DNA of 64,000 bases from Micromonospora sp. WMMA1947 (lineage in GTDB: Bacteria > Actinomycetota > Actinomycetes > Mycobacteriales > Micromonosporaceae). The notes under the pieces were generated by a model. That model had not been told where the DNA came from. It made no database searches and was given only the letters and a program-made list of their open reading frames with translations. Of this stretch, positions 46,365-52,330 are shown in pieces; the stretch's first letter is position 1, and every line of letters begins with the position of its first letter. The stretch is taken from NCBI RefSeq assembly GCF_027497355.1, contig NZ_CP114909.1, forward strand, positions 1,922,001 to 1,986,000, read 5' to 3'. A program made the position numbers and the translations under genes.

Positions 46365-49300
46365 CTAGTCCTGTTCGTCAGGCTCGTCGGCATTGCGAGC
46401 AATCGCCACGATAGTCACGCCGTCCGGGAGGTCCATCAGCTTGACCCCCATTGTGTTCCGGTCACGCGTACGGCGTACAGGCTTCACCGGAGTCCGGATG
46501 ACGCCGCCGTTGCTCGTGATGGCGAACAGCTCGTCCTCCGGATCGATCACGACCGCGCCGACCAGGCCACCGCGTCGCTCGGTGATCTTCGCGGTCAGCA
46601 CGCCCTTACCTCCCCGGCCCTGGACCGGGTATTCCTCGATCGGGGTACGTTTCGCGTAACCCCCGTTCGTCGCGACCAGAACGTCCAGACCCTCTCGCAC
46701 CACCTCGACGGCGAGCAACTCGTCCTCGCCGCTGAAGCGCATGCCGATCACCCCGGAAGTCGCCCGGCCCATCGGGCGCAGCGCCTCGTCGGTGGCGTTG
46801 AAGCGGATCGCCTGGGCGTTCTTCGACACGAGCAGCAGGTCGTCCTCCGGAGCGACCAGTACCGCACCGACCAGTTCGTCCTCATCGCGCAGGTTGACCG
46901 CGATGATGCCGCCGGAACGGTTGGAGTCGAACTCCTCGAGCCGCGTCTTCTTCACCAGGCCGTTCTTCGTGGCCAGTACCAGGTAGGGGGCCACCTGGTA
47001 GTTCGGGATTTCAATGATCTGCGCGATCTGCTCGTCGGGCTGGAACGCGAGCAGGTTGGCCACGTGCTGGCCCTTGGCCACCCTACTGGCCTCGGGAAGC
47101 TCGTACGCCTTCGCCCGGTAGACCCGACCCTTGTTCGTGAAGAACAGGATCCAGTCGTGGGTAGAGCATACGAAGAAGTGGCTGACGATGTCGTCCTGCC
47201 GGAGCGTCGCCCCGCTGACGCCCTTCCCGCCGCGCCGCTGTGACCGGTAGAGATCGACCTTGGTCCGCTTCGCGTAGCCGGTGCGAGTGATCGTCACCAC
47301 CACGTCCTCGCGGGCGATGAGGTCCTCCATCGAGACCTCGCCGTCGAACGGGACGATCTTCGTACGCCGGTCGTCGCCCCACTTCGCGACGATCTCGCCC
47401 AGCTCCTCCGAGACGATCCGCCGCTGCCGCTCCGGCTTGGCCAGGATGTCCTTGAGGTCGGCGATCTCCAGCTCGAGCTTCACCAGGTCGTCCAGGATCC
47501 GCTGCCGCTCCAGGGCAGCCAGCCGGCGCAGCTGCATGTCCAGGATCGCGGTCGCCTGGACCTCGTCGATGTCCAGCAGCCGGATCAGGCCCTGCCGGGC
47601 GTCCTCGACGGTGGGCGAGCGCCGGATCAGGGCGATCACCTCGTCCAGGGCGTCCAGCGCCTTGGACAGACCACGCAGGATGTGCGCCCGCTCCTCGGCC
47701 TTGCGCAGCCGGAACGCGGTCCGCCGCCGGATCACCTCGATCTGGTGCTCGACGTAGTAGCGGATGAACTGGGCCAGGTTGAGCGTGCGCGGCACGCCGT
47801 CGACGAGCGCCAGCATGTTGGCGCCGAACGTCTCCTGGAGCTGGGTGTGCTTGTAGAGGTTGTTCAGCACCACCTTGGCGACCGCGTCGCGCTTGAGCAC
47901 GAGCACGATCCGCATGCCGGTACGCCCGGAGGACTCGTCGCGGATGTCGGCGATGCCGGCGAGCTTGCCCTCCTTGATCAGCTCGGCGATGCGCTCGGCG
48001 AGGTTGTCCGGGTTGACCTGGTACGGCAGCTCGCTGACCACGAGCGCCGGCCGGCCCCGCTTGTCCTCCTCGACCTCGACCACGGCGCGCATCCGGATCG
48101 AGCCGCGCCCGGTCCGGTACGCGTCCTGGATGCCCGCCTGGCCGACGATCAGACCGTGGGTCGGGAAATCCGGGCCCTTGACGATCTCGAGGAGAGCTTC
48201 CAGCGTGGTGGCCTCGTCGGCCTCCGGGTGCTCCAGGCACCACTGCACCGCAGCGCCGATCTCGCGCAGGTTGTGCGGCGGGATCTTGGTGGCCATGCCG
48301 ACCGCGATGCCCTCGGAGCCGTTGATCAGCAGGTTCGGGATACGCGACGGCAGGATGGTGGGCTCCTTGGCCCGGCCGTCGTAGTTGTCCTGAAGGTCGA
48401 CGGTGTCCTCGTCGATGTCCCGCAGCATCTCCATCGCCAGCGGGTCGAGCTTGCACTCGGTGTTGTGGCTGACGAAGCCGTCGGAGACGAACGAGTGGTC
48501 CTCGGTGTCGACCCGGATGCTGTAGACCGGCCGCACACCGGCGTCGGTGATCTCGGTCACCTCGGCGTAGTAGAAGCGCCCGTCGACGAGCGGCTCGACC
48601 ACGTCGAGGACGCCCGGCTCGGTGATCCGGGCCGCGATCTCGTCGCGGTCCCGCTCCCAGCGCTCGATCCGATCCACGTTGTGCCGGCGCAGCCAGTCGC
48701 GCTCGGTCCAGCGGCTCGCGCCGTGCTCGCGGACGAAGTCGCCCACGAACGGCACGTGATCGCCGGAGAGCGCGGTGCTGCTCGCCGGCACCTGGGCCAG
48801 CTCGGACTCCAGCTTCGCCTGCTTACGGCCGAGGAATCCGATGTGCGCGGCGAAGATCCGGGCGTCCCGACGGTTGGTGACGACGACCTTGATCTCGCCG
48901 TTGTCGTACCGGCACTGCCGGCTGACCACGCCGAACTCCAGCAGCAACTGCTGGACCTCGCGGGCCAGCCGCTCGCTGCGGGTCGAGTAGGAGACCTGGA
49001 TCGTGTGGCGGGGCAGCAGCGACGACGAACCGTCACCCTCGAACAGCGCCTGGAGGAAGGCCCGCTTGACCGCTGCCGGACCGCGCCAGACGAACTCCGG
49101 CACGAACTTGTCGGCGCTCCGCGCGCCCACCATCTCGCCGAGCACGCTCGCCCGGAGCGCGGTGAGGTCCTGGACGTCGAGCTCGTGCAGCTTGCTGCCG
49201 GAGGCGATGACCCGCTCGGAGACGTACCGGGGGCCGCCGACCGCGAGGTCGTAGGCGGTGAGGACCCGGACGAAGAACTCACGGTCCACGTTGTTGAAGC

Positions 49301-50144
49301 CGGCCCGGTGCTCCGACACCCAGCCCTCGGCCACGAAGGCGCCGGCCAGCACAGCGGCCTCGACGTGCTCCAGCATCGGGTAGCCGATCTCGTCCGGCAC
49401 GGTGCGCTGGAGGACCACCCGGTCGCCCGGGGAGATCTCGGCGAGCAGCTTCCACAGCAGGGTCGGCACGCCGACCACGTTCACCAGGCAGAGCACCGGG
49501 TGGTTGTGGGTGCCGGTCAGCTCGTACCCCTCGCGGGTGCGCAGCCGCAACGTGGGGTGCTCGCCGGAGTGGAAGAACTTGCTGGCACGGACCAGGTCGC
49601 CGTTGCGGTCACGGACCTTGAGGTCGACGTCGGTCTCGCTGCTCGGCGCGGCGTCCGGCACGACGTCGCCGATCCGGACGGTGCCGTCGACGGTACGAAC
49701 CCGGACATCTGCCGTAACACAGTACCGCATGGCGGCAGCGGGATCATTACCCGGCGAACCGAAGTTGCCGTTGCCGTCGACCAGCGGGTAGCGCAGCGAC
49801 CACGGCTGCGCCATCCGGACGAGCGCGTCGTAGATGGCCGAGTCGCCGTGCGGGTGGAACTGGCCCATCACGTCACCGACGACGCGGGAGCACTTCACGT
49901 ACCCGCGGTCCGGCCGGTAGCCGGAGTCGAACATGGCGTAGAGGATCTTGCGGTGGACCGGCTTGAGCCCGTCCCGGACGTCCGGCAGGGCCCGCCCGAC
50001 GATGACGCTCATCGCGTAGTCGAGGTACGAGCGCTGCATCTCGACCTCGAGGCCGACCGGCTCGATCCGGTCGTGCTGGACGACCGCGGCCAGTGTCTCC
50101 GGGGTCTCCGGCTCGTTCGGGGTGGACTCGGGAGTATCGGTCAC
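46365..50144 (-). CDS. gyrA: DNA gyrase subunit A, interrupted by an intein
   Basis: Cleaves and rejoins DNA in negative supercoiling with GyrB. The 1259-residue product contains an intein (residues 142-561); after splicing it is 839 residues, normal length. The N-extein has the winged-helix domain with [20 protein letters not shown]; the catalytic tyrosine is the last N-extein residue (AAAMRY, Tyr141), and the C-extein resumes [10 protein letters not shown]. The GyrA box is [12 protein letters not shown], with beta-propeller blades in the last third. The gyrB-gyrA gap is 131 nt and holds DnaA-box-like sites. GTG start at 50144. Confidence 0.97.
48462..49721 (-). mobile_element. GyrA intein with LAGLIDADG homing endonuclease domain
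   Basis: 420 residues, in frame. Splicing signature: Cys1 ([10 protein letters not shown], block A), TxxH block [13 protein letters not shown] (65-77), block [17 protein letters not shown], and the terminal [10 protein letters not shown] with penultimate His-Asn followed by Thr+1. Endonuclease motifs [10 protein letters not shown] (125-134) and [10 protein letters not shown] (223-232) keep acidic residues (Glu, Asp), so nuclease activity is possible. It is inserted directly after the gyrase catalytic tyrosine, the same site as mycobacterial GyrA inteins. Confidence 0.93.

Positions 50145-50275: not shown

Positions 50276-52330
<2,055 letters not shown>

Follow-up and report, generated by a model that had tools for sequence, protein, structure and literature searches.

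In the window, by which we mean the whole stretch of 64,000 nucleotides of Micromonospora sp. WMMA1947 analysed here, the gyrA gene is read from the minus strand, next to gyrB, and its frame carries an in-frame insert of 420 residues. The features that matter for what follows are these:

50276..52222, minus strand: gyrB, the upstream neighbour of gyrA (translation recognised by eye)
46365..50144, minus strand: gyrA precursor open reading frame, 1259 aa, GTG start (frame and profile match)
49722..50144, minus strand: N-extein, 141 residues, the last being catalytic Tyr141 (frame analysis)
49722..49724, minus strand: TAC codon of Tyr141 (sequence)
48462..49721, minus strand: intein, 420 residues (frame, profile, PDB sequence match, structure model, Foldseek)
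49719..49721, minus strand: Cys1, intein residue 1 and splicing nucleophile (sequence; 88 of 88 full-length inteins)
49500..49511, minus strand: block B, T71-H-N-H74 (sequence, alignment)
49323..49349, minus strand: LAGLIDADG motif 1, LAGAFVAEG, acid E132 (sequence, alignment)
49029..49055, minus strand: LAGLIDADG motif 2, LQALFEGDG, acid D230 (sequence, alignment; Pfam LAGLIDADG_3 at residues 218-295)
48498..48500, minus strand: D408, invariant residue of the C-terminal splicing block (88 of 88 inteins)
48462..48467, minus strand: His419-Asn420, end of the intein (sequence, alignment)
48459..48461, minus strand: Thr+1, C-extein residue 1 (sequence)
46365..48461, minus strand: C-extein including the stop codon (frame analysis)
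49683..49760, minus strand: patch of AT-ending synonymous codons, 13 codons either side of the 5' intein junction (codon counts)

The insert makes up residues 142-561 of the precursor, between Tyr141, which we take from general knowledge of GyrA to be the catalytic tyrosine, and Thr562, with junctions PAAAMRY/C...HN/TE (here and below, a slash marks the splice junction). The 1259 codons run without stop or frameshift, and removal of the intein from the frame leaves a GyrA of 839 residues; the limits and both lengths agree to the base with the preliminary description, which had proposed a full-length intein at this place. Base composition is hardly altered at the borders (GC content 0.70 in the intein against 0.69 and 0.67 in the exteins).

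The identity of the element is best established at the level of the whole gene, which the NCBIfam model NF038098 ('intein-containing DNA gyrase subunit A') recognises at 2373.9 bits, for a cut-off of 1850, along model positions 1-1232 of 1232. TIGR01445 and TIGR01443 also score above their own cut-offs, as does Pfam LAGLIDADG_3 (77.9 bits, cut-off 22.5). Pfam Intein_splicing, taken alone, stays under its gathering score (28.2 against 35.8), which we attribute to the endonuclease domain splitting the match. The top sequence match in the PDB is the Mxe GyrA intein, 1am2 (E = 3.5e-53). An AlphaFold2 model built on a 15-sequence alignment has a mean pLDDT of 92.5 and a pTM of 0.92, and Foldseek against the PDB places the TliVMA intein first (E 4e-21), PI-PfuI third and the Mxe GyrA intein fifth, the latter with a TM of 0.89 by the target's length; a HINT fold is seen in this predicted model and its matches to inteins, as a prediction and not a solved structure. 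A chance or artefactual origin of the insert was considered and is ruled out by the exact frame, the profile scores and the PDB match. Judged from its sequence, the GyrA intein is an ordinary member of the already named family NF038098. As had been supposed for mycobacterial GyrA inteins, the site is shared: it is the same Tyr/Thr as that of the M. xenopi family (NF038098, 1am2), and it is also used by GyrA inteins from a different family within the order.

The residues expected of a class 1 intein are all in place, in keeping with what had been read from the letters: Cys at position 1, a TxxH in block B, and H419-N420 followed by Thr562. Among 70 aligned full-length GyrA inteins, C1, T71, H74, D408, H419 and N420 are each found in 70, and Cys1 and D408 are each present in 88 of 88 when a wider set of full-length inteins is used. 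His72 occurs in only 55 of the 70, so that the functional register of TxxH must be T71-H74. Both LAGLIDADG motifs, likewise noticed at the start, carry their acidic residue, E132 in motif 1 (intein residues 125-133; 70/70) and D230 in motif 2 (residues 223-231; 68/70). One departure deserves attention: the residue before E132 is Ala131, where 68 of the 70 have Ser, and alanine is unique to the present copy among them, the endonuclease of which could be weakened.

How widely this intein is spread was asked of 300 genomes drawn from the family, 106 of them species of the genus. At least 62 of the 300 hold a GyrA intein at the tyrosine site, and the matches listed comprise the genome itself, 39 of the same genus and 22 of the same family. 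A search with the joined, empty junction matched 240 genomes (E <= 1e-47), eight of which (E about 1e-48) were ParC cross-matches in genomes with an occupied GyrA and were removed, leaving 232 of 300 empty and 6 of 300 placed in neither state. Within the genus, 40 of the 106 species have the intein and 66 are empty, in a survey such as the preliminary description had proposed. Most of the 62 inteins listed are of full length (55 at 416-421 aa); four are shortened (347-373 aa) and three are mini-inteins (173-178 aa), all of these in other genera of the family, which suggests endonuclease loss as in the homing cycle. Of 394 genomes drawn from across the class, 31 gave a match at E <= 1e-20, in some cases through other inteins, such as that of RecA.

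To account for intein presence on a C-extein tree of 72 rows, 40 of them occupied and 32 empty, 13 changes are needed, eight of which are forced by well supported branches. Intein distances follow extein distances to a small degree (Mantel r 0.267, p 0.001), which points to an inheritance that is in part vertical. In 178 close pairs from the 30 of 40 genus sequences that are exactly 420 aa long, dN/dS is 0.147 in the endonuclease part, whereas the two splicing parts give 0.26 and 0.132 and the C-extein gives 0.064; by this sequence measure, the endonuclease is under purifying selection in the genus. From patchy presence together with purifying selection we infer that the GyrA intein is a live homing element. 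Its vector was sought in 50,697 phage records, 72,556 plasmid records and viral contigs, and no close relative was seen there: 66 phage records match, each below 60% identity, besides two weak matches in plasmids and one, at 22%, in viral contigs. An origin from a circulating plasmid or phage, entertained as a candidate, was set aside on these distant matches. An alignment of the ParC inteins described below found no match in the phage, plasmid or viral-contig records.

The genome, 6.31 Mb in one contig, contains a related intein that the preliminary description overlooked. Its ParC, the A subunit of topoisomerase IV, encoded downstream of a ParE that was recognised by eye, has at the homologous catalytic tyrosine a 429-residue intein, the second match within the genome:

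L002 1501-2787, C1:6264659-6265945, minus strand: ParC intein, 429 aa

The two inteins are 47% identical; the ParC junctions read GPAAARY/C...HN/TEAR. NF038098 gives this ParC precursor 987.3 bits, below the cut-off of 1850, for the 1139 residues, part of the gene, that were scored, and NCBIfam offered no model of intein-containing ParC in searches with inteins of this site (site a) or of the second ParC site (site b, below). A third intein-like match, N-terminal, lies elsewhere in the genome (L050, C1:1271377-1271601, plus strand), in a frame that by eye looks like a radical SAM protein similar to Rv2578c.

ParC inteins at site a are present in 16 of the 300 family genomes and in 10 of the 106 in the genus, these same ten being the genus members without a contiguous ParC site-a junction. 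Alignment against named GTDB genomes retrieved 56 loci, 52 with a ParC extein and four with a GyrA extein by score, several of the ParC calls (L232 and L244, for example) resting on a small score margin; most of the named ParC hosts belong to the Micromonosporaceae or the Pseudonocardiaceae. The closest named ParC inteins are those of Micromonospora chalcea (98%) and M. marina (97%), with ParC exteins at 99% and 98%; these matches point to Micromonospora as the host genus and fit the Micromonosporaceae host that had been guessed from the DNA. The same intein is 82% identical both to that of Amycolatopsis taiwanensis, where the extein is at 83%, and to that of M. halophytica, where it is at 94%; equal identity of the inteins despite such different exteins argues for transfer between families.

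Site b, just before HPHGD (VGD/C...HN/CMGKYHPHGD), is occupied by an intein of 433-435 residues in 11 of the 106 genus genomes (L169-L179). The site-b intein is far in sequence from those of site a, since NF038098 gives it 26.2 bits, and it has no sequence match in the PDB. Nine of the 52 named ParC genes, which were found through site a, hold both sites (L200, L201, L202, L204, L207, L209, L238, L240 and L242), as does L180, and in a Pseudonocardiaceae-like genome, G546, an intein in GyrA adds to those at both ParC sites. Counting all three inteins, one or more is present in 50 of the 106 genomes of the genus, and 11 of 106 carry inteins in both enzymes. If gyrase and topoisomerase IV are both essential here, as in other bacteria, a cell of the present strain has to splice the two of them at the catalytic tyrosine.

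The relationship between the site-a inteins of the two paralogues is reflected in a 97-row tree where the GyrA type (43 rows) and the ParC type (54 rows) are separated with full support. The ParC-type branch unites 51 ParC hosts with three GyrA hosts from metagenome-assembled genomes (L225, L227 and L228, actinobacterial and with gyrB upstream), the inteins of which are 68-69% identical to the ParC type and 47-51% to the GyrA type. At least one switch between GyrA and ParC is implied by these sequences, and a second is favoured, from the three metagenomic genes; a single host change suffices in 0 of 200 bootstrap trees, yet the AU test does not reject it (p 0.444). Vertical descent from the duplication that separated GyrA and ParC would be possible from identity alone (47% between inteins, 42%, or 267 of 630 columns, between exteins); it was rejected by a reasoning based on intein dN, about five times extein dN in close pairs.

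A last trait of the locus is its choice of codons. In the 40 gyrA genes of the genus that contain the intein, AT-ending codons amount to about 5% gene-wide; their fraction is 0.65 at codons -10 to -6 and climbs to 0.4-0.95 at many positions early in the intein. The richest 26-codon window lies within five codons of the 5' junction in 39 of the 40, and the N-side flank is the top window in an amino-acid-matched column permutation, a level reached in 0 of 2000 trials, for a pattern that had been noticed before the width of the codon window was chosen. There is no such patch at the 3' junction. The loci concerned, among occupied genes and part of the intein-free relatives, are positions 49683-49760 of the window, L109, L116, L126, L133 and L183, and L139-L168. 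Among 32 intein-free gyrA genes, five have an AT-rich flank (4-6 of 13 codons) and the other 27 have 0-2 such codons. Four of these five are neighbours of occupied rows or nested among them, on branches with support, which suggests intein loss leaving a scar; the fifth (L116) sits on a fork without resolution. Taken together, the intein-free gyrA genes show no significant window (best P 0.90); the N side of site a ranks second of 563, with a local P of 0.0175. The 32 parC genes without an intein have their top two of 563 windows at site b (P 0.0085) and at site a (P 0.017), and site a is in the gene's own top 5% in 8 of them, site b in 11, either in 14; this signal comes from part of the species, probably one clade. 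The intein-free genes used for comparison were for the most part those that best match the junctions of the genome itself, and not a random draw. The 19 occupied ParC rows include named and other records that may belong to the same species. As for a general property of topoisomerase genes, it was discarded: among 36 parC genes of other families (40 loci fetched, four left out), neither site is in excess, and the one window that emerged is unrelated (codon 369 in f39, P 0.004).

These AT-ending codons at intein-free sites are perhaps the scars of past inteins. Our tentative view, somewhat more doubtful than secure, is that the region around the active site of type IIA topoisomerases serves inteins as a common battleground in Micromonospora and its relatives: related inteins sit at the same tyrosine of the two proteins GyrA and ParC, another lineage has settled just before HPHGD in ParC, and homing would have left lasting scars of AT-ending synonymous codons, in genes with 95% GC3, at all three sites, two in ParC and one in GyrA, from which former inteins might be recognised in genes now empty. 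Another account of the codon anomaly alone is plausible too, if rather questionable: the codons would serve translation, through a pause or a low mRNA structure at the border between N-extein and intein, and would have nothing to do with homing. It would suit a patch that covers the first 13 or so intein codons, absent from any empty-allele target of the endonuclease, and that is missing from the 3' junction; it sits less well with intein-free alleles that keep the patch inside occupied clades, and with intein-free ParC having it at both intein sites when the 36 ParC of other families do not. The codon data do not distinguish between a scar, resistance to the endonuclease and a translational role. 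Were the scars real, genes now free of inteins could be screened through them for past ones, and the genus, with occupied, empty and apparently scarred alleles in close relatives, lends itself to the direct study of invasion, loss and host resistance.

We can therefore understand the insert, with very little doubt, as a canonical full-length class 1 intein with a two-motif LAGLIDADG homing endonuclease, belonging to the known actinobacterial GyrA family at the Tyr/Thr site, that would splice, home and behave selfishly. The precursor would be translated as a single chain of 1259 residues, in which Cys1, the T71/H74 block, D408, H419, N420 and Thr+1 would drive the N-S shift, transesterification, cyclisation of the asparagine and the final S/O-N shift, releasing the intein and joining the exteins into a normal GyrA of 839 residues, as suggested by the conserved residues and the Mxe GyrA homologue. 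The endonuclease, as intact motifs, purifying selection and patchy presence lead us to expect, would cleave intein-free gyrA alleles, into which the intein is then copied, and the intein would persist selfishly in a gene that is essential. The equivalent tyrosine of ParC, that of the present genome included, is occupied by a sister lineage because the two sites are homologous, presumably after a move between the paralogues.

It might be argued that such an element is past its prime, splicing poorly or homing no more, its precursor being tolerated by the cell. The unique Ala131 of motif 1 and the shortened and mini versions in other genera lend this some colour; as every splicing residue is intact, the 1259 codons are uninterrupted, the endonuclease is under genus-wide purifying selection and gyrA is essential, we regard decay as improbable. 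A conditional switch, whereby redox, metal or DNA-damage stress would delay splicing and tune gyrase, perhaps also topoisomerase IV, after translation, appears still less credible, and indeed very unlikely. Conditional supercoiling and an effect on fluoroquinolone assays, which the preliminary description had raised as possibilities, stay speculative. An insert at the catalytic tyrosine should leave the precursor inactive, GyrA and ParC both carry an intein in 11 of the 106 genus species, and 7 of the 10 species with a ParC site-a intein also have that of GyrA, slightly above expectation (Fisher p 0.039, kinship ignored); yet this association is marginal and is lost when ParC site b (p 1.0) or ParC inteins of either site (p 0.14) are taken instead, and a presence that is patchy among close relatives, with 66 of 106 species without the GyrA intein, is more in keeping with a selfish homing element than with a switch that the host has kept.

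The intein can finally be set against the systems it resembles. Nothing defining separates the present gyrA from NF038098, the whole gene lying above the cut-off. With the M. xenopi GyrA intein (1am2, 4oz6) it shares the host gene, the splicing blocks at both ends (query residues 2-108 and 367-420) and a similar fold; the solved Mxe chains, of 199-202 residues, match only its two ends, which in the present intein flank a complete endonuclease region with two motifs. The ParC intein of the same genome occupies the homologous Tyr/Thr site and is also of full length; it differs in its host gene, in its separate branch (100/100 support) and in having Ser or Thr at block B position 71, where the GyrA type has Thr. 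Much more remote is the GyrA-like protein of Staphylococcus phage vB_StaM_SA1 (L246 2099-5650), the intein of which, in a phage host gene, lies at the equivalent tyrosine (AAASRY/C ... HHN/TE) and is very distant, at 23.4% identity to the GyrA intein described here.
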